DNA of 42,835 nt from Candidatus Gastranaerophilales bacterium (lineage in GTDB: Bacteria; Cyanobacteriota; Vampirovibrionia; Gastranaerophilales; Gastranaerophilaceae): contig CALUVH010000015.1 in assembly GCA_944324175.1 (NCBI GenBank), forward strand, positions 1 to 42,835. The letters are read 5' to 3'. A program made the translations under genes and the position numbers. The notes under the pieces are model-generated. The model did no database searches and was not told the DNA's origin. It saw only the letters and a program-made list of their open reading frames with translations. Positions 31,836 to 42,835 of this stretch are shown in pieces (positions within the stretch are counted from its first letter, which is position 1; every line of letters begins with the position of its first letter).

Positions 31836-34769
31836 TTATGCAGCGACAGCAACCTCAGGTAAATCTTCTCTATTGAATCCGAGTTTATCGGTATATTCAA
31901 AGATAGATCCTTTTTTGCCAGGTTGATTCCAACTGAAATCAACTTGTAAATCGTTAGCTACCATTTGTTTGTAACTGTCGTAATCGTAGAAGTACATTTT
32001 GAGGGCTTCTACCATCTTGTCGTACACCGCATCTTCACTAGGGTATGCTGCTAAAAATCCTGTTACACCGTCTACAATTGTGTCGTGGAATCCTCCTACA
32101 TCAGTTGCAATTACAGGAGTTCCTTTTGCAAAACATTCACCTTGAATTAATCCGCATGGTTCGTAATCTGAAGGTCCCATAAAGAATGTGCTGGCTGACA
32201 TTATTGCAGGGTTTGGTAAGTTGCCTTTTAAAGCTATGGTTCTGTCTATACGTGCTTTGTTTGAACCAAAATCAGGGTTTTTGAGTTCGTTTAGATATAC
32301 CAACTCATCAGCACTTTCAGGAGGTCCGCCTGCTAAAATTATCGGCATCGGTTTTCCTGGGAATAAATTTTCCCAATTATCAAACAATTTGAAAGTTGCA
32401 CCTTTTAAATGTTTTAAACCTTTTTGTGATGAAAGTCTGTGAGCGAAAGAAATTAATGGTGCGTTCAAGAAATCTTCTTCTGAAATGTATGTGTTACCTG
32501 CATCAGGTCTAACTATTTCAGGACCATTTTTATAGTTTTTATCTATTACAAGTGGTTTAAAGTATTGTTGATAGAAAAGACGTTTGTTTTCACGGCGCTT
32601 TTCCATAACTTCGTCTATTGGAGTATTTTCGTCATATACATTGAGTTCTAATCCTTTGACGTAGTTGTTCTTTGATATTGCTTTCATATTAACTTTGTTT
32701 TTATCTAAGCCGTTTAGAATGCCACCAATTGTACCTGTGTGTTTTCTGCGTTGTAGAAGCGGATACAAAATTCTGGATTGCATTGGATCGTTAATACATT
32801 CATTTGCATGGTTAGGAGATACAATTTCAAACCAATCTGCTAATGAGGCTCCTAAGAAAAGATTATTGTAATGTTTATCACCGGTTTTACGTTTTAATAA
32901 AACCGTATTCCACATATCATCATTTGTATCTTGGGATTTTCTCAGACCGCTTTCTGCGTGTTGAGTGATTGCAATAGCGTAATTATCATATAAAGTGTTA
33001 ATTACATTTTCCGTAACGTGATTTTTGGCTAGTAATGAACCGCTTCCTCCGTTGGTATTACCTTGTACTCCAAGGTTATGACCTATCATTAATAGCGGCA
33101 TATCTTTCATTGCTTCATAGACATTTTTATCTAGTTCATTGTATGCATATTCCATAGGGGCACGATATCTCAAAAGACCCGCCATTGAGCCGGCATGCCA
33201 GTCGTTTAATATCATGGAGTTTGGCGCTTTTACATCCTTAAATGCTTTGTTATCAATAATTTTGATGTTTTCAACGCCTGTGTTTTGTGAATTTAGAGCT
33301 GATGCAACTTTATATTTTGCGAGTGTGTATACAGCTTTTGTTAAAAATGCAAATTTTTCTGTTTCTTCTGCAAAAGTTGTTGAATCGTACAAATCATCTT
33401 TAAAGTAGTCATTGTTTTTTACAAAAATAAGTGTTTTTGTCTTGTCAGAGTCAGGAATTTTTATTTTTGTACTGAAAAATTCTACTTTTTCATGTAATTG
33501 TTTTCCATTTCTGTATGTTGGGATATTTATTTCTGCGAGTTTGTCTAGTTTAAATACATCTTTGCCGTATTTGTATGTGTACTGAGTTTCTGTTTTATCG
33601 TTTAACGGATTATATTCTGTTATAGCTTTGAATTCTCCTTGGTTTTTCTTTAAATACATTGGCACAAATGTAGGTGCATCTATTCCCATTTTTTCAAAGT
33701 TATCTTGCAAGTCTACAGGAACAACTCCCAATCCGCCTTTTTTAATAGGTGCATATTCAGCTGTTATTGCCCATTGTGAAGTGAGTTGAGGGTGTTTTTC
33801 TTTGTAGTTTTTGATATCTCTTATTGTATCTTCAGCACTTCTGTCCAGCCTGATTGAAGCAGCACTTTCAATGTTTTTCATTGCTTCTGCTGATTTAGTA
33901 ACGTCGATTTTCTTTTGCCAATCGAGGACTGTCATTAGGCGGAGATCGTAATAAGGTTCTGTATACAGTTTCATAAGAGGGCTTGTGTGACCGCTAACCG
34001 CATCTTTTGCATCTCTAGCATTTTCCATTGCTTCTGATATTCTTCCATCATAGGCGTATGCAGTGTTTCGTGCTTCGTATGCAACACTTCTTGCTTCATT
34101 TGCTATGCCTGTGACTTCATTAGCTTTATTGATGGCTTTTTCCGGATTATCTATTATTGAAATAGCTTTATTTTTAGCTGTGTTAATTTCGTCTTCGCTA
34201 AATCCTTGCTCTTTTATTCTTTCTTTATTGTTTTTCAAAAATTCATTGATACCTAAGCCTGTACCGATACCTAGTAGCGCAGTAGTTAATATTGACTGCT
34301 TTGATACCGGAATTGTTGTATTTGCTGATGTTTCAGATTTGATATGTTTGGTTGCTTCTTCTACGGCTTCTTTTATTTGTTTTTCAATATCAAGTTTTTT
34401 AATCTTACCTGAAAGGTCAGTAATTGATTCTTGAATACCGTTTAGTAATTGTGTATTTGCCTTTTTCCCTTTTTTATAAGCTAACGGAATACCAATGGCG
34501 CTAGTTATAATTGCTGCTGAGCCTGTCACAAGACCACCATATTTTACAGCCATATCTTTAATACTGTTTTTATTTTCCTGTTTAGTTTTAGAACTTATAT
34601 ATTCATCTTTATTTGGTTGCGTTTGAAGTTGTGTTTTAGGATCGTTTTTAATGCTTGCGTCCTCACTTTTTACCGTTTTGGACGGTTGCGCAATTGAATT
34701 TTGATAATTGACTTTTGTTTGACTAAAGGATGCCAATAAATTTGTTTTCGGTTGAATTTCTATACTCAT
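31836..34769 (-). CDS. GT5 starch/glycogen synthase with long N-terminal membrane/coil extension
   Basis: 977 residues, about twice the length of bacterial GlgA (~480). From about 330 the GT5 catalytic region is recognisable: KKGGLGVVP (343-351, the K-x-G-G-L ADP-glucose site), LNDWHAGSM, and the C-terminal PSDYEPCGLIQGECFAKGTPVIATDVGG block with the catalytic glutamate. Insertions between these blocks account for part of the excess. Residues 1-65 are polar and Gln/Lys-rich. Two hydrophobic segments (about 78-97 and 158-176) suggest membrane anchoring. Between and after them lie coiled-coil-like Glu/Ala/Lys helices up to ~330. Expected role: alpha-1,4-glucan chain elongation. No other glycogen gene is adjacent. 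Start behind AAAAGGTG. Confidence 0.87.
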   Translation of the reverse strand: MSIEIQPKTNLLASFSQTKVNYQNSIAQPSKTVKSEDASIKNDPKTQLQTQPNKDEYISSKTKQENKNSIKDMAVKYGGLVTGSAAIITSAIGIPLAYKKGKKANTQLLNGIQESITDLSGKIKKLDIEKQIKEAVEEATKHIKSETSANTTIPVSKQSILTTALLGIGTGLGINEFLKNNKERIKEQGFSEDEINTAKNKAISIIDNPEKAINKANEVTGIANEARSVAYEARNTAYAYDGRISEAMENARDAKDAVSGHTSPLMKLYTEPYYDLRLMTVLDWQKKIDVTKSAEAMKNIESAASIRLDRSAEDTIRDIKNYKEKHPQLTSQWAITAEYAPIKKGGLGVVPVDLQDNFEKMGIDAPTFVPMYLKKNQGEFKAITEYNPLNDKTETQYTYKYGKDVFKLDKLAEINIPTYRNGKQLHEKVEFFSTKIKIPDSDKTKTLIFVKNNDYFKDDLYDSTTFAEETEKFAFLTKAVYTLAKYKVASALNSQNTGVENIKIIDNKAFKDVKAPNSMILNDWHAGSMAGLLRYRAPMEYAYNELDKNVYEAMKDMPLLMIGHNLGVQGNTNGGSGSLLAKNHVTENVINTLYDNYAIAITQHAESGLRKSQDTNDDMWNTVLLKRKTGDKHYNNLFLGASLADWFEIVSPNHANECINDPMQSRILYPLLQRRKHTGTIGGILNGLDKNKVNMKAISKNNYVKGLELNVYDENTPIDEVMEKRRENKRLFYQQYFKPLVIDKNYKNGPEIVRPDAGNTYISEEDFLNAPLISFAHRLSSQKGLKHLKGATFKLFDNWENLFPGKPMPIILAGGPPESADELVYLNELKNPDFGSNKARIDRTIALKGNLPNPAIMSASTFFMGPSDYEPCGLIQGECFAKGTPVIATDVGGFHDTIVDGVTGFLAAYPSEDAVYDKMVEALKMYFYDYDSYKQMVANDLQVDFSWNQPGKKGSIFEYTDKLGFNREDLPEVAVAA

Positions 34770-34999
34770 ACAAACACCTTTTTACTTTTCATTACTACGT
34801 ATCAAGTCAAAATCCGTAAAAACTTCTTTTTGCTAAAATGAGTATTCATTTTTAAAAGTTGTTACAAATCTTCACCCAAGGTTATCTAAGAGACCATAGC
34901 CAATTGTTAGCATGAATATTTTTTGAAGTCAATCAAAAAAGTTGCCCCATTGGGGGATTTTGATGAAAAAATAATGTATATTTTTTTTGAAAAATTTCC

Positions 35000-35028
35000 T
35001 TGACAATAAAAAATGTTCTTGTTATAGT
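35000..35028 (+). promoter_or_regulatory. Strong sigma-70 promoter of tRNA-Lys
   Basis: A perfect TTGACA (35000-35005) and TATAGT (35023-35028) are separated by 17 bases. Transcription should start near 35035, about 30 bases before the tRNA. Confidence 0.82.
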
Positions 35029-35063
35029 AAACGTATTGACGAAATGAATAGCAAATAATGCTT

Positions 35064-35136
35064 GCGCTTGTAGCTCAGCAGGTAGAGCACTCCCCTTTTA
35101 AGGGATAGGTCGCGCGTTCGAATCGCGCCAAGCGCA
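35064..35136 (+). tRNA. tRNA-Lys (anticodon TTT)
   Basis: The acceptor GCGCTTG (35064-35070) pairs perfectly with CAAGCGC (35129-35135), discriminator A. The anticodon arm is CTCCC/GGGAT, with a mismatched outer pair, around the loop CTTTTAA, giving TTT. The D-arm AGCTCAGCAGGTAGAG and T-loop GTTCGAA are present. No CCA is encoded. It lies immediately upstream of the phage-tail-like cassette and is a plausible integration target, but no second copy of its 3' end is visible downstream. Confidence 0.95.
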
Positions 35137-35137
35137 T

Positions 35138-35169
35138 AAAAAAGAGGATCCAGAGATCCTCTTTTTTTT
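35138..35169 (+). terminator. Terminator of tRNA-Lys
   Basis: AAAAAAGAGGATC pairs with GATCCTCTTTTTT around CAGA, followed by more T. It separates the tRNA transcript from the tail cassette. Confidence 0.92.
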
Positions 35170-35283
35170 ATGTTGAATGTATCAATTTAGGTAAAGAGTT
35201 TATTAAATTTATATAGTATAGTGTATATTTTTTCGACGACTTGAGGTTTTTAGAATAATTCGTTATATTGAGAATGGCCGGAG

Positions 35284-35376
35284 TTGGCATACAAAGGTTT
35301 AGCTGTTTTAAAGCATTTGCATAAGGCTTTTCCAGAACAGATTGTCAACATTGATGGGGGGCTTGGCATTGAATAA
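35284..35376 (+). other. Possible short ORF or gene remnant leading into the tail cassette
   Basis: An open frame from a TTG at 35284 runs 30 codons (MAYKGLAVLKHLHKAF, then PEQIVNIDGGLGIE) to TAA at 35374-35376. Its composition looks protein-like, and its stop overlaps a TTG (35369) that could start the next gene. It has no good start or ribosome site and may be the tail of a lost phage gene, or chance. Confidence 0.3.
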
Positions 35377-35725
35377 ATATTTATATTGTTGCGGGCGTAA
35401 TCAGGTTTGTAAAGTTTATGATTTGCCTGTGAATTTTGGAGCATGGAAACGGTTATATTTTTTAGATGAGTGTGCTATGTGCAAACGTTCGGTTGCTGTA
35501 TTGCAATTTTGTAGTGCTAGAGGCGAGGTTAAGACTTTAAAAAGAGCTGTTGGTCAAAAAGCTGTAGAATTGCGTGATAAATTGACACTGAAAGTATTAA
35601 TTTTTAAAGGAAATTTGTCGAAAGGTACGATAGCTGATGAACGTCGTTTTTATAATAATTTTGGAGTTATTTACAATTTTAATAACAAAAGAATCGGTAC
35701 AAATGCTGAGTTTGTAAAAATGTGA
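35354..35725 (+). CDS. Cys-rich phage-like protein at the head of the tail cassette
   Basis: About 123 residues from the ATG at 35354. A TTG at 35369, just behind a GGGGGG run, would give 118 residues and is also plausible; the ATG has no ribosome site. The N-terminal half carries CCGRNQVC and DECAMC, a spacing that could hold a zinc finger or treble clef. The rest is basic with beta-strand character (KLTLKVLIFKG). Not recognised as a family. It is first in the same-strand tail cassette, seven bases before the tail-terminator gene. A structural or regulatory phage role is inferred only from place. Confidence 0.6.
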   Translation: MGGLALNKYLYCCGRNQVCKVYDLPVNFGAWKRLYFLDECAMCKRSVAVLQFCSARGEVKTLKRAVGQKAVELRDKLTLKVLIFKGNLSKGTIADERRFYNNFGVIYNFNNKRIGTNAEFVKM

Positions 35726-35732
35726 GGGAAAA

Positions 35733-36287
35733 ATGGGAACCAATGAAGTAAAAAAATATATTTATGATTATTTAATAGATAAATTAATTGAGAATTTCCC
35801 ACGGTATTTCCAGTTAATGGAACGTGTTGATTATGAAATTTTTTGGGGACAACTTAGTGATTTAATTTCAGATAAAATATATGTAACAATAGTTGATAAG
35901 CGAATTTCAAAGGTAGGTAAACGCTATGAAGAATACTTGAAAAACGGAAAGTATTACCGTAGAAGAACAAAAAAAATGTTTGTTAATTTCGAAGTATATG
36001 TTCAGGCGTCTGAGGATTTTTATCATAAAGCTGATTTTGCTACTGTTGAAGTTATTGAATTTATTGAATCGCTTTTTACCGAAACTCAAGAAACATTTAA
36101 CTTTTTTTTGCAAAAAGGGATTGTAATTAAAGAATTAGAAGCGTCTGATATTAGGGATTTTAGTAGGCTAAATCTAAAGACGCAAGAATTTAGAAAAGAA
36201 ATTGAAATTCCTTTTGAATATGAGGAAATATTTGAATATATTCCAGAGTTTGGTAATGATTTAGAAACTGATATTAATGTATTGTAG
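35733..36287 (+). CDS. Tail terminator (neck)-like phage protein
   Basis: A 184-residue acidic protein with several aromatic-rich helices and strands (MFVNFEVYVQASEDF). Its size and its place directly before the sheath gene match tail-completion/neck-terminator proteins of contractile tails (LIC_12616-like group), which cap the tube and sheath at the head-proximal end. No sequence motif is decisive, so the assignment is largely positional. In a capsid-less particle the same protein would form the cap. Ribosome site GTGAGGG, five bases before ATG. Confidence 0.55.
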   Translation: MGTNEVKKYIYDYLIDKLIENFPRYFQLMERVDYEIFWGQLSDLISDKIYVTIVDKRISKVGKRYEEYLKNGKYYRRRTKKMFVNFEVYVQASEDFYHKADFATVEVIEFIESLFTETQETFNFFLQKGIVIKELEASDIRDFSRLNLKTQEFRKEIEIPFEYEEIFEYIPEFGNDLETDINVL

Positions 36288-36337
36288 TTGTACTACAGTT
36301 TATTATTGTGCGTACTTTTAAATGAAAAGGAGAACTG

Positions 36338-37477
36338 ATGAGCATTTATGATGACTTAGTAAGTATTCTTTTTAAACTTCCTGATGGGCGTAGTTTAGAA
36401 GAATATTTCAAAAATGTACTTTTGGTCGGGAAATTTTCAGAGCTGGATTTTCAGCCTGAGGTTGAATTTCCTGAGTGTGGGGTAAAAAAATACTCTTCTT
36501 ATGATGAGGTGATTACAGATTTTCTACCAACATCTCAAATTGCATTGGAAGCTAATGCAATTTTTAATCAGAAAAATAATACACAAACCACTTCACAAAT
36601 TATGTATTTGATTGTGACTCAACAACAGGAGGAAGAGACTGTATCTCAAGCTCTTGATAGGGCAAGAACTTATGATGGTCGTTTTGCAAAGGTTGTTCCA
36701 GTATCAAGGGAGGCAGATGATGTCAAGGATGCGGCTCAATGGTGTATGACAAATGACAGATTTTGTGATTTTGCAATTACTGACATTTCAGCTGTTGAGG
36801 ACATAATTGCCGCTGAAAATAATTATGCTTATGCAATTTTCAGAAAAACTAAAAATGATCCGATAGCTTCAGCTATAGCATCGACTTCTACTTGCGGGTA
36901 TTTTGGTGGAAAAGATGGTTCGGCTCAATTTACTCAATTAATAGGAGTGCTGCCTGAAACTTATACCGGTAGTGAGATTTCAGACATGAAGTCTAAAAAT
37001 GTTGCTTTTTATACGAATGTATCGCCTATCGAAGGTGGTCAAACCGACAGTTTCGGATATAACTGGGTGATTGGTTCCAGAATGCTTGGAGGTGAGCTTA
37101 GACAACGTCAAATGATTATGCATTACATCAAAAAATCAATTGGCTTAATGGCGTTAGAATTTTTTAACCAAAAACCGGTATATGATGAAACCGGAAATAA
37201 TTTACTCTTGTCTATGGCTCAAAAACGCTTTAGAAATTTTCAGACTTATAATCTTGTAATTCCGACAAATAATTTACAAACAGGTTTTGAATTAAATGTG
37301 ACTCCAATAAGAGTTGGTGCAGATAGTATTATGAATACTGATTTGGATGCTTACAATGCTAAAAAGTTTAAACTTACAGGATACTATTATGATTCTATTG
37401 TCGGTGAAAAGGTCGATTTCACGTTTTATGTTGATCCTTCAGATGAACAAATTGAACAAATTTTAGGTGATGAATAA
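36338..37477 (+). CDS. Contractile tail sheath protein, DUF3383 type
   Basis: 379 residues, in the size range of DUF3383 phage sheath proteins. The N-terminal half has the alpha/beta arrangement typical of sheath domains. The middle has FAITDISAVEDIIAAENNYAYAIF followed by AIASTSTCGYFGGKDG and the NVAFYTNVSP stretch, the segment order of the DUF3383 family. The C-terminus, QTGFELNVTPIRVGADSI then a final beta hairpin, would supply the arm that links subunits. It is followed by the tube gene, which is the standard order. Ribosome site AAAAGGAGAA. Identification rests on family pattern and gene order together. Confidence 0.82.
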   Translation: MSIYDDLVSILFKLPDGRSLEEYFKNVLLVGKFSELDFQPEVEFPECGVKKYSSYDEVITDFLPTSQIALEANAIFNQKNNTQTTSQIMYLIVTQQQEEETVSQALDRARTYDGRFAKVVPVSREADDVKDAAQWCMTNDRFCDFAITDISAVEDIIAAENNYAYAIFRKTKNDPIASAIASTSTCGYFGGKDGSAQFTQLIGVLPETYTGSEISDMKSKNVAFYTNVSPIEGGQTDSFGYNWVIGSRMLGGELRQRQMIMHYIKKSIGLMALEFFNQKPVYDETGNNLLLSMAQKRFRNFQTYNLVIPTNNLQTGFELNVTPIRVGADSIMNTDLDAYNAKKFKLTGYYYDSIVGEKVDFTFYVDPSDEQIEQILGDE

Positions 37478-37513
37478 TTTTAGGTGTTAAAAAGTCCATA
37501 GGAGAGATTAAAA

Positions 37514-37894
37514 ATGACAGTTTATGATAGTAAGAATATTGAGTTTACTTGGCGAAATCTTACATTGACAGGTACAGGAGATGAGTATGCGTACAGTATA
37601 ACCCAGCAAGGTGATAGTATCCAAGCGTACAAAGGAGTTCAAGGCGAGGGGTTAAATATTATAAATAATCAGCGCAGTTGGCTAATTTCCAGAACTTTTA
37701 AAGCGGATAGCCCATGTTTACCTGCTTTAATTGAAGATAATATGAATTTTATTGAGGATACTTTAGTCGTTCGTGACTTAAATACTGGTATATCGGATAC
37801 TTTTACTGATTGTGTAATTTTAAACATATCGGGAGAACAGGATTCCAAGACGAGAACAGTTACTTGGAGTGCTTTATATAGAAATGGCCGATAG
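37514..37894 (+). CDS. Tail tube protein, DUF3277 type
   Basis: A 126-residue beta-rich protein. Features of this small-tube family are TWRNLTLTG near the start, EDTLVVRDLNTG in the middle and RTVTWSALYRNGR at the end. It should form hexameric rings stacked inside the sheath. It lies directly after the sheath gene and before a hairpin and the tail chaperone, as in many myophages. A second, clearly related protein occurs at 41859-42236. Ribosome site TAGGAGAG. Confidence 0.8.
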   Translation: MTVYDSKNIEFTWRNLTLTGTGDEYAYSITQQGDSIQAYKGVQGEGLNIINNQRSWLISRTFKADSPCLPALIEDNMNFIEDTLVVRDLNTGISDTFTDCVILNISGEQDSKTRTVTWSALYRNGR

Positions 37895-37910
37895 TTATGC
37901 CAAAAGGCTG

Positions 37911-37939
37911 CATGGTGAGGCTTTTTAAGCCTTGCCATG
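37911..37939 (+). other. Strong hairpin between tube and chaperone genes
   Basis: CATGGTGAGGCTT pairs with AAGCCTTGCCATG (13 pairs including two G-U) around a TTT loop, 17 bases after the tube stop codon. The T tract behind it is short. It could lower expression of downstream assembly genes or protect the abundant sheath-tube mRNA. Its right arm resembles the hairpin at 13244-13274. Confidence 0.65.
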
Positions 37940-37981
37940 TATGTTTTTGAGAAAAATATTGTGATGAATAAGGAGAACTTT

Positions 37982-38452
37982 ATGGCAATTCAATGTACGG
38001 TTAATGGACGAGTATATTCTACTGCGCCGTTATATTTTGAAGATTTTACCACACTCGGAGTGATTACAGAGGAAAAAATCTACCCTTTGTTAATGGTGTT
38101 GTATGCTTGTATGAAAAATAATTTCGATGAAGTTGAATTATTTAGACTTTTATACACAGCAAGCCGTGAGGCGTTTAATCGAGATGATTTAAGATTGATA
38201 TCTAACTTGGTATTGAATAGAGAACACCTGTTGATAGATGGTAAAAAGCTTGATAAAGTTGAATGGGAAAAACACTGGCAAAGTGTTGGTTTTGTTGAAT
38301 ATCGCGTTGTTGTGATAAAGTTTGTTGAGGCAAATCTTGGAAATTTTACGAGTTTGTCTGCGCTGATTCCACAGTTGCAGACAGAGGAGTTAAAGAGTTA
38401 TATAACAAAGATTTTGCCAATCTTATTTCTAGGTCTAAACGTTCAAAAGTAG
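37982..38452 (+). CDS. Tail assembly chaperone, short form (G-like)
   Basis: 156 residues from the ATG at 37982, eight bases behind AAGGAG; a further-upstream in-frame ATG lacks a ribosome site. The protein has a small beta N-terminus, then helices (LLMVLYACMKNNFDEVELFRLLY), with no membrane span. It lies between tube and tape-measure candidate, the fixed place of tail assembly chaperones. These are typically made in two forms by a ribosomal frameshift, and a suitable slippery heptamer occurs at 38341-38347. Function is inferred from position, size and the frameshift architecture. Confidence 0.75.
   Translation: MAIQCTVNGRVYSTAPLYFEDFTTLGVITEEKIYPLLMVLYACMKNNFDEVELFRLLYTASREAFNRDDLRLISNLVLNREHLLIDGKKLDKVEWEKHWQSVGFVEYRVVVIKFVEANLGNFTSLSALIPQLQTEELKSYITKILPILFLGLNVQK
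38341..38347 (+). promoter_or_regulatory. Programmed -1 frameshift site, A AAT TTT
   Basis: The heptamer AAATTTT is in the X XXY YYZ register relative to the chaperone frame (codons AAT 38342-38344 and TTT 38345-38347). Slipping back one base joins the chaperone to an open -1 frame that runs to 38640. The -1 frame is closed upstream by TGA at 38326-38328, so a slip must lie between there and the zero-frame stop at 38450. No other canonical heptamer is seen in that interval. Confidence 0.72.
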
Positions 38453-38640
38453 AAATAGAAAGACATGTTATATCAAGCATATTAAGACTTACGGCTTCAA
38501 ACAGAGCTGCTCAATTAGGATTTACGTATTCTGAAATTAAGCATATGTCTGTAAAAGAAATATGGGTTCTGCAAAATGAGATAAAAAAACGACTTCAGCA
38601 AATGAATCAAAGTATTCATTGTAGCAGGTCAAAAAGGTAG
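38347..38640 (+). CDS. Tail assembly chaperone, -1 frameshift extension (T-like)
   Basis: 97 codons in the -1 frame relative to the chaperone, ending TAG at 38638-38640, eleven bases before the next gene. The frame has coding character: helical, charged, and ending in MSVKEIWVLQNEIKKRLQQ. It fills what would otherwise be a 190-base gap. It has no ribosome site or start of its own (the first in-frame ATG, 38545, is unsupported). The slip at 38341-38347 would give a ~219-residue fusion of 122 chaperone residues plus this extension, equivalent to lambda gpGT or its myophage counterparts. It probably recruits tube subunits to the tape measure. Confidence 0.7.
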   Translation, partial: YEFVCADSTVADRGVKELYNKDFANLISRSKRSKVEIERHVISSILRLTASNRAAQLGFTYSEIKHMSVKEIWVLQNEIKKRLQQMNQSIHCSRSKR

Positions 38641-38650
38641 GGATTAGAAA

Positions 38651-39715
38651 ATGGAAGAAAAATTATTACAGGAGCTTATTGTAAAATATGATGAAGAGGT
38701 TGAAAAAATTGTCCGACATTACTCGAGTCAAAAATACGTAAATAATTCTAAGTCTTATGACAATCAGAAGTCTATTGAAAATCCTATAATAAATCAATTA
38801 TCAGAAAAAGCTTTGTCTTTATATTTAAAATCTGATTTGAGTGAGGAAATTGATTTTATTGATAACTTACAAAAAGATTTAGTAATAAATTATAAGGAAG
38901 CATTAAAAAGTTATTTAAATGATTTTTATCCGCTAGCAAAAGAGATTGGTTTTAATAAAGATACTACTCATAAATTAGCTAGCGAGATTTTTAAATCAGC
39001 TGCTAAAAATAATATTAAGTCTGATATCCTTCAGGGGGTTATATCTGAAATTGCCTTAACTCAAGAGAATATACCTTCAGAGAAAAATTCTGCTTCCGTT
39101 TTAGATATGCAATTTGATAAAAGTATCTCAAAAAAATTGCTTTCGAAATCTAATAAAGCAGCTTATAGCTCAAAAGATTTATCCGGTTTAATATCGAGTT
39201 ATATCTCTAATTATGTAAGGAAAGTTGCAAAATTACCTGTATTATCAAGTTCAAATGAGGTGATTTTTGCAGATGCCTCTGAAAATTACGAAAGTAATGC
39301 CTTCTCCAATAACATAGCTGCTAAATACATTACAGATGCAGATCTAAAATCGAAAAAAAATACAGCATTGAACTTTCCTTTTTCTTTGTTTCAGAAAAAT
39401 ATATATAGGAGGATTGGTATGTTTTCTCCATCCTCCTTTTTTGAAATGGGGAGTTATTTAGATTTGCAGCCAAAAGGGGATTTGCCTCTAATAACTGATA
39501 ATGCTCAGGAAAGTATGGAAAATTTATTGTCTGAAAATGTAAGGCTTACAAATGAAAGTATAGAGCAGGCTGACTTGGAGCAAAATGAGGTTAGGGAAAT
39601 TTCCCAAAATTTATACTCGTACTCTCAAGCTGATATAGAAAATCAGATTAAAGAAACTATGATAAATATTTTTGAAGATTTTACAGATTTAAAAGGTTTC
39701 AAAACTGTCAAGTAA
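38651..39715 (+). CDS. Putative short tape-measure protein
   Basis: 354 residues, mostly helical, rich in Ser, Lys, Asn and Glu. No enzyme motif or clear transmembrane segment is present. Its place, directly after the frameshifted chaperone and before the baseplate genes, is that of the tape measure, which sets tail length. At 354 residues it would be short: the usual rule of about 1.5 angstrom per residue predicts a tail near 50 nm. No homologous motif was recognised, so the call is positional. Ribosome site GGTAGGGA. Confidence 0.55.
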   Translation: MEEKLLQELIVKYDEEVEKIVRHYSSQKYVNNSKSYDNQKSIENPIINQLSEKALSLYLKSDLSEEIDFIDNLQKDLVINYKEALKSYLNDFYPLAKEIGFNKDTTHKLASEIFKSAAKNNIKSDILQGVISEIALTQENIPSEKNSASVLDMQFDKSISKKLLSKSNKAAYSSKDLSGLISSYISNYVRKVAKLPVLSSSNEVIFADASENYESNAFSNNIAAKYITDADLKSKKNTALNFPFSLFQKNIYRRIGMFSPSSFFEMGSYLDLQPKGDLPLITDNAQESMENLLSENVRLTNESIEQADLEQNEVREISQNLYSYSQADIENQIKETMINIFEDFTDLKGFKTVK

Positions 39716-39796
39716 AGTAGGTTTATATTGTTTAAGACTATTTTTAATAGTTATTAGTAAAAAATGGAAATCGTTGAAATAGATAGAAAGGCACTT

Positions 39797-40114
39797 ATGA
39801 AAACATACAGTTTACCGAATTTGCTGATCAATCCGAGTATAAGGTTGGTGTACATAATAAATAATAAGCAATATACATTTTCATTTAGGTGGTTGAGTAA
39901 TTTTTGCCATTTGTCAATTTATCAAATAAAAGATAACAAGCAGATCTATCTGGTTAAAGGTCGGGCGATTACGCCAAATACAAACTTGATAGAGCGTGTT
40001 AACGACAATAGCTTAATCTGCGGACAACTAATCATAAAAAATAAGTATGGACAGGATGTTGAGATATCAAGATATAATTTCCATACCGATTTTGAAATGG
40101 AGTATTATGAGTAG
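39797..40114 (+). CDS. Baseplate plug-like protein
   Basis: 105 residues from the ATG at 39797, five bases behind AGAAAGG; the upstream ATG at 39764 has no ribosome site. The order of beta strands fits the small baseplate-plug proteins of contractile tails: a QYTFSFRWLSNFCHLSIY segment, a VKGRAITPNTNLIERV segment, then LICGQLIIKN. The protein would close the hub lumen around the tape-measure end. Its stop lies inside the start of the hub gene (ATGAGTAG), so translation is coupled. Confidence 0.65.
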   Translation: MKTYSLPNLLINPSIRLVYIINNKQYTFSFRWLSNFCHLSIYQIKDNKQIYLVKGRAITPNTNLIERVNDNSLICGQLIIKNKYGQDVEISRYNFHTDFEMEYYE

Positions 40115-40928
40115 TAATTATTTGAACTTTGATTTTATCATAACCACCTTGGAAGAAGATATAACGATTGATAATCTCGATGTGGAATTTGATATTTGTA
40201 AAAATAACAAACTAGAATCTAACAGAGCCTATTTGAATATCTGGAATTTGAGCGATGTAAAGTATAATACTTTAATGGAAAAAGATGTTATGCTGAATAT
40301 AAGCATCAGTTTTGGAGGCGAAGATCCGACACTATTATTTTGCGGAAAGTTAGATCGAGCACGGGTCAAACGAGGCAGACCTTGGAATCGTGTTGATGTA
40401 GCCAATAGGTTTATTTTAATTGACGGTGCAGATGCTTTTTGTAAGTTTATAAACAAAAATTATCGAGAGCAGGTGAATTCAACTAAAATTATACAGGATT
40501 GCATATCTTTAATGGGAGCAGGCAGTGGCAGGATAAGTGAAAATTTACCAATTCAACAGTATGAAAGTTATAAATTGTTAGGTTATCCTCAGGATGTGCT
40601 TGAAAAAATTTGTACGCCTCTAGGTATAAGTTTTAGTATCCAAAATAATTTGGTAGATGTAATATCTCCATTTGAGGTATTTCAGGGTGGAGATGTCCCC
40701 ACATTTAATGCTTCAAATACGTTAAAACTTAACAACTCAGGAAAAGATGAAGTGACAATAACAACTGGGCTAACTTCTTTGGTTAACCCAAACGACTGGG
40801 TCGAATGTGATTATGAAGATTTAAAAGGGGTATTTCAGGTAAACCAAGTTCGACATTATGGAAACAATTATGGGAAAGTTTGTTTAACAGAGATAACGGT
40901 GGGGTATAAAATCAGTGGTCAGAAATAG
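40107..40928 (+). CDS. Baseplate hub protein (gp27/gpD-like)
   Basis: 273 residues from the ATG at 40107, which overlaps the plug stop codon; GGAG lies just upstream. The first domain (EFDICKNNKLESNRAYLNIWNLS, LLFCGKLDRARVKRG) and the TKIIQDCISLMG to YPQDVLEKICTPLGISF segment follow the pattern of phage late-control D/Mu gp44-type hubs. A final beta domain (ITTGLTSLVNPNDWVECDYEDLKGVFQVNQVRHYG) matches the typical hub C-terminus. It would form the trimeric ring holding the spike. It overlaps the spike gene by 14 bases. Confidence 0.75.
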   Translation: MSSNYLNFDFIITTLEEDITIDNLDVEFDICKNNKLESNRAYLNIWNLSDVKYNTLMEKDVMLNISISFGGEDPTLLFCGKLDRARVKRGRPWNRVDVANRFILIDGADAFCKFINKNYREQVNSTKIIQDCISLMGAGSGRISENLPIQQYESYKLLGYPQDVLEKICTPLGISFSIQNNLVDVISPFEVFQGGDVPTFNASNTLKLNNSGKDEVTITTGLTSLVNPNDWVECDYEDLKGVFQVNQVRHYGNNYGKVCLTEITVGYKISGQK

Positions 40929-41481
40929 TAATGATGTATTAAATGATGTTATAAACGGAATTAGTTCAGCAATACTTGTGGAAAAGCCATGCAAAATCAT
41001 TAATATACATTCACAGTATTGCGTGGATATAGAATACTACGACAATAACGTAGCTGATTGTTTGTACAAAGTACCTGTAAAGCACATACAAACCTCAAAG
41101 GCTTATGTATATTTGGGGCTAAGCGTAGGCGACAGAGGTACGGTGAGATTTTTTGACACTGACGTATCGAACTATAAAAGCGGCAGTAGCAAAACAGGAG
41201 GAGCCGTAAGACGACACAATATAAATGATAATATCTTTACTTGCGGCTTTTATCCCTCACCGTCCCAGTATTTGTTTCCTAGTGGGGATGTTGTCATAGG
41301 TACAACATCAGGAGCTCAGATAAGTATTTCAGGCAATGAGGTTGCTATAGTTGGTGGAAGTATTTCAATAACTGGTGGTACAGTGACACTTGATGGAAAT
41401 ACGACGATAGATGGTAAGGTGTTTTTGGAACATACGCATTCAAATGGAAACGAAGGCAGTCCGACAGGTGCAGTGATTTAG
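40915..41481 (+). CDS. Baseplate spike protein (gp138/gpV-like)
   Basis: 188 residues from a GTG at 40915, with GGTGGGG upstream. Residues about 20-90 fit an OB-fold domain of the Gp138 spike group (VDIEYY, YVYLGLSVGDRGTVRFF). Residues 130-170 are a short beta-prism or helix (ISISGNEVAIVGGSISITGGTVTLDGN). The end carries HTHSNGNEGSPTG, whose His pair could bind a metal at the spike tip. It would pierce the target envelope. It overlaps the hub gene and is followed closely by the W-like gene. Confidence 0.78.
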   Translation: MVRNSNDVLNDVINGISSAILVEKPCKIINIHSQYCVDIEYYDNNVADCLYKVPVKHIQTSKAYVYLGLSVGDRGTVRFFDTDVSNYKSGSSKTGGAVRRHNINDNIFTCGFYPSPSQYLFPSGDVVIGTTSGAQISISGNEVAIVGGSISITGGTVTLDGNTTIDGKVFLEHTHSNGNEGSPTGAVI

Positions 41482-41489
41482 GAGGGAAA

Positions 41490-41834
41490 ATGACAGATAT
41501 AAAAATGGAAAACAACCGTTTGGTAATGCAAGACGGTGATTGGGTAATTGTAGAAGGTGTGGATATGGTAAAACAGCATATCATTGTGGCATTGAATACT
41601 TTTTACAAAGACTGGATTTTGGATTATACAAAAGGGGTAGATTACGCCTATGGAATGCGTAATACAGAGTTTTTGGAATACGATGTCAAACGTCAAATTT
41701 CAGGTGTAGATGGTGTGAATTCAATAAGCGATTTTTCGCTTTCATTGAACCGTGCTGACAATTCAGTGCAGATAACTGCTGTTGTTAAAACCGCTTATGG
41801 CAACATTAATTTGCAAGAAAATATTTACAGATAA
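41490..41834 (+). CDS. Baseplate gp25/W-like sheath initiator
   Basis: A 114-residue protein of the gp25-like family that nucleates sheath polymerisation on the baseplate. It shows the expected opening beta pair (NNRLVMQDGDWVIVEG), the helix VKQHIIVALNTFYKDWILDYTKGVDY with the conserved start of the family core, and the closing strands. A strong TTAGGAGGG ribosome site lies three bases before the ATG. In contractile tails the next gene is usually the large J wedge; here a second tube-like gene follows. Confidence 0.8.
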   Translation: MTDIKMENNRLVMQDGDWVIVEGVDMVKQHIIVALNTFYKDWILDYTKGVDYAYGMRNTEFLEYDVKRQISGVDGVNSISDFSLSLNRADNSVQITAVVKTAYGNINLQENIYR

Positions 41835-41858
41835 ATGAATAAATAGGAGAAATGATAA

Positions 41859-42236
41859 ATGCCGATATATAACATAAGAAATACTGAACTTGTATGGCGT
41901 GGGTTGACAATGACAGGTTTTTCAGATGTAAAAATTTCATTAGGTTCAGATAGGTTAAGTAACATTCAGGTGATTGGAATATCAGGTGAGTGTTTTGTGC
42001 ATCCAAATCCTTCTAGAATATGGGTCATATCATCAATGTTCAACATAAACAGTTTGAGCTACCCTATTTTGGAACAAGACAATCTGGATAATGTCGAAGA
42101 TACGCTGATAATAAGAGATTTAAATATCGGAACAACAGACATATATACAAAGTGTACCATAATGTCAATAACAAATAACCAAGATAATTATTTCAAGACT
42201 GTTACTTGGCATGCAATTAAACGTAACGGCAGATAA
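41859..42236 (+). CDS. Second tail-tube-like protein (paralog of 37514-37894)
   Basis: 125 residues, clearly related to the tube protein at 37514: WRGLTMTG against WRNLTLTG, VEDTLIIRDLNIGTTDIYTKC against IEDTLVVRDLNTGISDTFTDC, and KTVTWHAIKRNGR against RTVTWSALYRNGR. It diverges most at residues 20-60. Sited after the W-like gene, it may be a tube initiator that joins hub to tube, or a variant tube. Ribosome site TAGGAGAAA. The sequence relation is certain; the special role is inferred. Confidence 0.78.
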   Translation: MPIYNIRNTELVWRGLTMTGFSDVKISLGSDRLSNIQVIGISGECFVHPNPSRIWVISSMFNINSLSYPILEQDNLDNVEDTLIIRDLNIGTTDIYTKCTIMSITNNQDNYFKTVTWHAIKRNGR

Positions 42237-42279
42237 GAATATTTTTATAATAATGTGATTTAGGTGGTGATTCTTTGTG

Positions 42280-42661
42280 ATGTCAAAAAGTTCTATGTTC
42301 AATTTCAATAGAATTAACAGGGCATATAGCAAGTGAAAATCTTGAAATATGGTCGATGTGTGATTTCGCATCAAAAATTGCTGACGCGCAGGCAAGCAGC
42401 AAGAAGGTATGCCTAAGGATAGGCAAAACTATATATGAAAATTGTACTATTAAAAGTAACACGATTACCGTAAAAAATATTTATGATACATCATTTGTAT
42501 TGCAAGTTAACTATAAACATGAGCCATCCAATCCTACCAAGTCACAACAAAAGAAAACTAGTACAATTAATTTGGAAGATAAGAATAGCGGGTTTAAGGG
42601 CAAGGTAAAAAAATTTTTTTGTAAAGAAAAGAATGGTGGTATTCAAGGACCTAAGTCTTAA
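42280..42661 (+). CDS. Small tail-cluster protein with a broken reading frame near its start
   Basis: The frame ending TAA at 42659-42661 is open back to 42281 but has no start there; its first internal ATG (42356) gives 101 residues with no ribosome site. An ATG at 42280, behind AGGTGG, is in another frame that stops after 18 codons. Removing one base from the A5 run 42285-42289 joins the ATG to the long frame, giving a ~126-residue protein beginning MSKVLCSISIELTGHIASEN. The downstream part has CLRIGKTIYENC and a Lys-rich C-terminus. The function is not recognised. Either a real or sequencing indel, or frameshifting, must be invoked. Confidence 0.5.
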
Positions 42662-42682
42662 AATGTGTAGCATTAGTCTCAT

Positions 42683-42835
42683 TTAAGTTTTGTGCAGAGT
42701 GTATTCTGTATTACTACTATCAGCGTAGTTAAAGCCATAAATTTGATTACCAGAGATGGTGTATTCTGTATTACTACTATCAGCGTAGTTAAAGCCATAA
42801 ATTTGATTACCAGAGATGGTGTATTCTGTATTACT
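42683..42835 (-). CDS. C-terminal part of a protein made of 20-residue repeats (truncated by window edge)
   Basis: The minus strand is open from the window edge to TAA at 42683-42685, 50 codons. It encodes perfect repeats of SNTEYTISGNQIYGFNYADS, closing with SNTEYTLHKT. The Asn/Thr/Gly-rich repeat with regularly spaced hydrophobics suggests a beta-solenoid of a surface adhesin or fibre. The plus strand of the repeat contains stops, which supports the minus frame. The N-terminus is outside the window. It is convergent with the tail cassette, 21 bases from its last stop. Confidence 0.65.
   Translation of the reverse strand, partial: SNTEYTISGNQIYGFNYADSSNTEYTISGNQIYGFNYADSSNTEYTLHKT
42701..42835. 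repeat. 60-bp perfect tandem repeat
   Basis: 42701-42760 and 42761-42820 are identical, and 42821-42835 begins a third copy; the bases just before 42701 differ. The period of 60 is 20 codons of the minus-strand gene. Perfect identity indicates recent expansion or homogenisation, and the window ends inside the array. Confidence 0.95.

Follow-up and report, generated by a model that had tools for sequence, protein, structure and literature searches.

Results

The window analysed here, a stretch of 42,835 nucleotides from a Candidatus Gastranaerophilales bacterium (contig CALUVH010000015.1), carries a set of tail genes that begins directly after the host gene glgA (34769), with the tail terminator at 35733. 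It continues with sheath, tube, the gene G with its GT extension, tape measure, plug, hub, spike and sheath initiator, and its last member before the contig ends is a second tube-like gene. The sheath gene (36338-37477, forward strand) matches phrog_205 (E 1.8e-21), and the tube gene (37514-37894, forward strand) matches phrog_280 (E 3.4e-9) and encodes a protein 73% identical to the tube of prophage L024. In the window and in most relatives, G lies between the tube and tape measure genes, which is where the initial annotation had placed it. The position stands, but the "tape measure" is a short, divergent protein of 354 amino acids (38651-39715, forward strand) identified only via relatives: it shares 25-34% identity with proteins of L021 and L022, and the L021 counterpart gives a sub-threshold match to Pfam TMP_3. 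Another contig of the same genome, C31, starts with the end of a gpJ-like gene, followed by gpI, a fibre gene and a regulator, and then the host gene pth.

Two further genes of this region have counterparts elsewhere. The second tube-like protein (41859-42236), encoded after the sheath initiator, is similar to the tube at 37514 and is found in many relatives. An open reading frame of 127 amino acids (35342-35725) directly before the tail terminator has no family match, and each of the six genomes of the genus has it, at 63-72% identity.

Gene G (37982-38452, forward strand) starts at an ATG at 37982, just 3' of a ribosome-binding site AAGGAG, and encodes a 0-frame protein of 156 amino acids, which was aligned across 21 protein sequences. 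The heptamer AAATTTT at 38341-38347, covering codons 121-122 of G, stands in the X_XXY_YYZ register relative to this ATG and reads A_AAT_TTT. Between 38329 and 38640 the -1 frame stays open; a TGA at 38326-38328 closes it on the 5' side, a TAG at 38638-38640 ends it, and the next open reading frame begins at 38651. A slip at the heptamer would add an extension of 97 amino acids plus stop, T (38347-38640), and give a GT fusion of 219 amino acids. The initial annotation had described this layout, that is, a canonical heptamer in the correct register, a 97-codon -1 frame filling an otherwise empty gap and an upstream TGA that narrows the slip window, and it proved right on each of these points and in all its positions. 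The window has roughly one in-register X_XXY_YYZ heptamer for every 125 codons, and 0.33 of them would be expected by chance in the 41-codon overlap (0.03 for AAATTTT itself); since such heptamers are not rare by chance, the motif alone is weak evidence, and it is conservation that carries the case.

We therefore rely on 22 copies of the site, the window and 21 others drawn from related genomes, named genome contigs and viral contigs; most counts below cover 21 copies, the 22nd being the more divergent G349/L059. The 19 matches on named contigs come from Candidatus Gastranaerophilales metagenome-assembled genomes or uncultured bacteria, and one copy is from an IMG/VR contig; among viral contigs, a single-protein query returned no match and an alignment query returned one. 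Homologues outside the same family were not found in the wider class and phylum samples, and a tblastn search of G and sheath against 50,697 phage records found no credible relative. The heptamer, whose retention in homologous loci was a check suggested with the original proposal, occurs at the same place after GGA in all 22 copies, which amount to fewer than 22 independent tests because several are closely alike, and which are not fully independent homologues because all are from one bacterial family. The whole string GGA-AAT-TTT is kept in 21 of 21 copies, and the 22nd homologue keeps the heptamer too. In the same genes GGA accounts for 27% of Gly codons, AAT for 60% of Asn and TTT for 91% of Phe, so that TTT is uninformative; invariant Gly positions elsewhere in these genes use three or four different codons.

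The -1 frame has been kept as well. It is uninterrupted in all 22 copies, extending 84-108 codons past the slip, and dN/dS past the 0-frame stop is 0.06-0.24 in eight of nine pairs and 0.53 for the pair L038/L039, from which we conclude that the T region is translated and selected as a protein. The site is also kept where gene order is rearranged, in L038 (10001-13717) and L039 (172-3929), where G/GT precedes the scaffold, capsid and sheath genes. Breaks between frames are common in draft metagenome assemblies, and the site could on that account be read as an assembly error or as a decaying pseudogene that was formerly a single open reading frame; an identical break at the same codon in 22 separately assembled copies, with both frames under selection, rules this out and leaves it a probability close to nil.

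An independent start for the downstream frame, one of the outcomes named at the outset as refuting the frameshift, was also looked for. If the T region were a separate small gene whose translation began within G or beyond it, no frameshift would be needed, and an in-frame GTG 36 nt after the heptamer start, present in 15 of 21 copies, is where one ORF caller would begin such a gene. This GTG is, however, absent from the window and from five other copies, and where it is present it belongs to the 3' arm of the hairpin described below. In the window, ATG, GTG and TTG are all missing from the -1 frame 5' of position 38545, which already lies well within the conserved domain, and an independent start for T in the window is thereby ruled out. 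A separate gene would also leave the invariant heptamer and the GGA codon upstream of it unexplained, and we regard it as very improbable.

The initial description of the site, which stands, did not mention two putative stimulators that we add here, a Shine-Dalgarno-like element upstream and an RNA hairpin downstream. The upstream element is GAGG at 38327-38330 on the forward strand, and its AGG ends 10 nt 5' of the heptamer in the window and 10, 11 or 12 nt across copies. AGG is present in 20 of 21 copies, with GGAG in the remaining one; no 8-nt window elsewhere in the gene has AGG in more than 10 of 21. All three codon phases are seen, which argues that it is the RNA that is kept and not the encoded residues. 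The predicted energy of pairing with the anti-Shine-Dalgarno sequence, about -3 to -9 kcal/mol, is moderate, and several copies have equally strong windows elsewhere. The proposed downstream stimulator (38353-38385, forward strand) starts about 7-8 nt 3' of the heptamer, with a stem in the window pairing 38353-38365 with 38372-38385 (minimum free energy -17.3 kcal/mol, z -3.27); the stem common to relatives begins at about 38355. Mean folding z over 21 copies is -3.06, and on the 18 copies that could be aligned 93.5% of cells are paired, against at most 56% for slid structures. Covariation is modest, with three pairs (four cells) showing changes on both sides, and in L036, L038, L039 and L040 a hairpin folds at the same place with a stem that is not alignable in a shared register. 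The stem lies where both frames are coding, which leaves its support good but short of overwhelming. A search of Rfam gave no match. Taken together, the Shine-Dalgarno-like element, heptamer and hairpin would form a tripartite signal like that of dnaX.

These flanking elements also bear on how the second frame would be reached. Some bacterial genes rely on transcriptional slippage, as opposed to ribosomal frameshifting, where about nine A or T follow one another (PMC5009743), whereas the site has only A3T4, or T5 in some relatives. An upstream Shine-Dalgarno-like element and a hairpin exert their effect on ribosomes, and a slip by the polymerase would not explain why they are kept. Given the short runs and the conserved ribosomal stimulators, slippage during transcription is not favoured, and we hold it to be extremely improbable; ribosomal frameshifting is the reading retained below.

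The identity of G as a tail assembly chaperone, proposed in the initial annotation together with its GT partner, gains support from its predicted fold. The model of G (pLDDT 80.7) is confident up to about residue 120, where the slip site falls, and has many matches among viral structures (E 1e-4 to 1e-2, TM about 0.5-0.6), including proteins named as tail assembly chaperones or tape measure chaperones, A0A8S5QIZ7, A0A8S5TJ35 and A0A0A0RQ75 among them. These matches support homology of G to known tail assembly chaperones at the level of the predicted fold. At the sequence level, matches of G to chaperone families are weak, the best being to phrog_1688 (E 0.001) and involving two of 21 sequences. 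Neither G nor T gave anything above the cut-off in Pfam or a credible match among PDB sequence profiles, and Foldseek of G against the PDB gave no match at E <=0.001. VIA-align of G returned 5ir0 at Z 7.3 and the HK97 chaperone 2ob9 at Z 3.5 over residues 1-120, scores in the range of common helical arrangements. T is modelled as a flexible linker followed by a helical domain, for which Foldseek found nothing significant among viral structures. A Pfam match of T to RapH_N (E 0.0015) was seen in one member only and taken as chance.

The surroundings of the site call for a correction: the cluster appears to be a headless tail and not an ordinary tailed prophage. The contractile tail cluster at 34769-42835 of the window, continued on G000:C31 1-2806, lies between the host genes glgA and pth. 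Searches with the capsid and terminase of related prophages, which cover relatives of these two genes in the assembled contigs (the stretch joining C15 to C31 is unsequenced), gave no match in any of the six genomes of the genus. Both genes are present in all seven other genomes tested, which carry related prophages. On this ground, the cluster is likely a domesticated, headless contractile tail of tailocin type common to the genus, to judge from gene content. In the sheath tree, the six genus genomes form one clade (100/98). A 24-base DNA match on G000:C26 has no phage genes nearby and was taken as chance.

Gene content varies among relatives. In the sister genomes L021 (10670-19408), L022 (10706-18267) and L023 (3999-12701), G/GT is followed by at least two tandem tape-measure-like proteins of about 390-420 amino acids with a common C-terminal motif like DDFxxLKGF, and small reverse-strand, membrane-looking genes are scattered among them. 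These tandem proteins may serve as cargo, or they may be alternative tape measures that have partner proteins. The window has one tape-measure-like protein and none of the small reverse-strand genes. L070 (G002:C29, 142-12086) has four gpJ-like baseplate genes, some of them truncated, in alternation with copies of a protein that begins MAKTYAAFYLPPEE, an array that suggests exchangeable modules.

Discussion

The conserved heptamer and the protein-level selection on the -1 frame lead us to conclude that the tail assembly chaperone gene almost certainly uses a programmed -1 ribosomal frameshift, yielding mostly G and, by slippage, GT. Slippage itself is inferred, as are how often it happens, the ratio of G to GT and what G and T do in assembly. 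Most ribosomes would stop at 38452 and release G, whereas a fraction would pause at A_AAT_TTT, held by GAGG on the 5' side and by the hairpin on the 3' side, slip back one base and continue to 38640 to make GT. In the model for lambda, G coats the tape measure and the T part of GT brings in tube subunits (PMC5009743); by analogy, the tape measure protein would here be coated by many G and few GT molecules, and recruitment of tube subunits by the T part would let the tail polymerise to a fixed length. Other chaperone sites reached frameshift efficiencies of 6-7% in an experimental test (PMC3711429), and the putative stimulators seen here suggest that efficiency at this site may be higher.

We found no report of frameshifting in phages or tailocins of Gastranaerophilales in the open-licence papers searched. 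GT is invisible to routine gene calling, and the T half of the chaperone would therefore be absent from annotation in this lineage. The site offers a compact natural case in which each stimulator of a chaperone frameshift could be tested separately, and its retention where head genes were not detected suggests that tail assembly, and not only phage reproduction, maintains the selection on it. A wider scenario, which we put forward tentatively and think rather unlikely as a whole, is that domestication of a phage tail in a gut lineage of Gastranaerophilales went along with loss of the head, while a dnaX-like chaperone frameshift with its stimulators was retained and set to a G:GT ratio other than the one in lambda-like phages. 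Where relatives have several tandem tape-measure-like genes, a single G/GT pair would then work with two or more tape measures, and hence with two or more tail lengths or cargoes.

Frameshifting between G and GT defines a long-known class in tailed phages, of which lambda is the type, and the site described here is a well-supported further member; the wider class is that of Xu, Hendrix and Duda (2004). In lambda the -1 slip takes place where an X_XXY_YYZ heptamer lies towards the end of a small gene flanked by those for tube and tape measure. The arrangement here is the same, and both products would likewise have one N-terminal domain in common, with the extension coming from the -1 frame. The chaperone of HK97, a non-contractile siphophage, shows a weak structural likeness to residues 1-120 of G (2ob9, Z 3.5, in the range of unrelated helical matches). 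R-type tailocins such as the R-pyocins, although from a different host phylum, resemble the cluster in having sheath, tube, chaperone, tape measure, plug, hub, spike, baseplate and fibre genes, no detected head genes and host genes on the flanks, a likeness in gene content. What distinguishes the present site is its conserved three-part dnaX-like signal and its survival in a cluster in which head genes were not detected. Certain tailed phages show low-level frameshifting without evident stimulators (PMC5009743), whereas a Shine-Dalgarno-like element and a hairpin are conserved here. The same tripartite layout is found in Escherichia coli dnaX, where a Shine-Dalgarno-like stimulator lies upstream of the slippery heptamer and a hairpin downstream (PMC3711429); the dnaX heptamer, on the other hand, is A_AAA_AAG and not A_AAT_TTT, and slippage there leads to an early stop and a shorter product, whereas slippage at the site in G would give the longer one.
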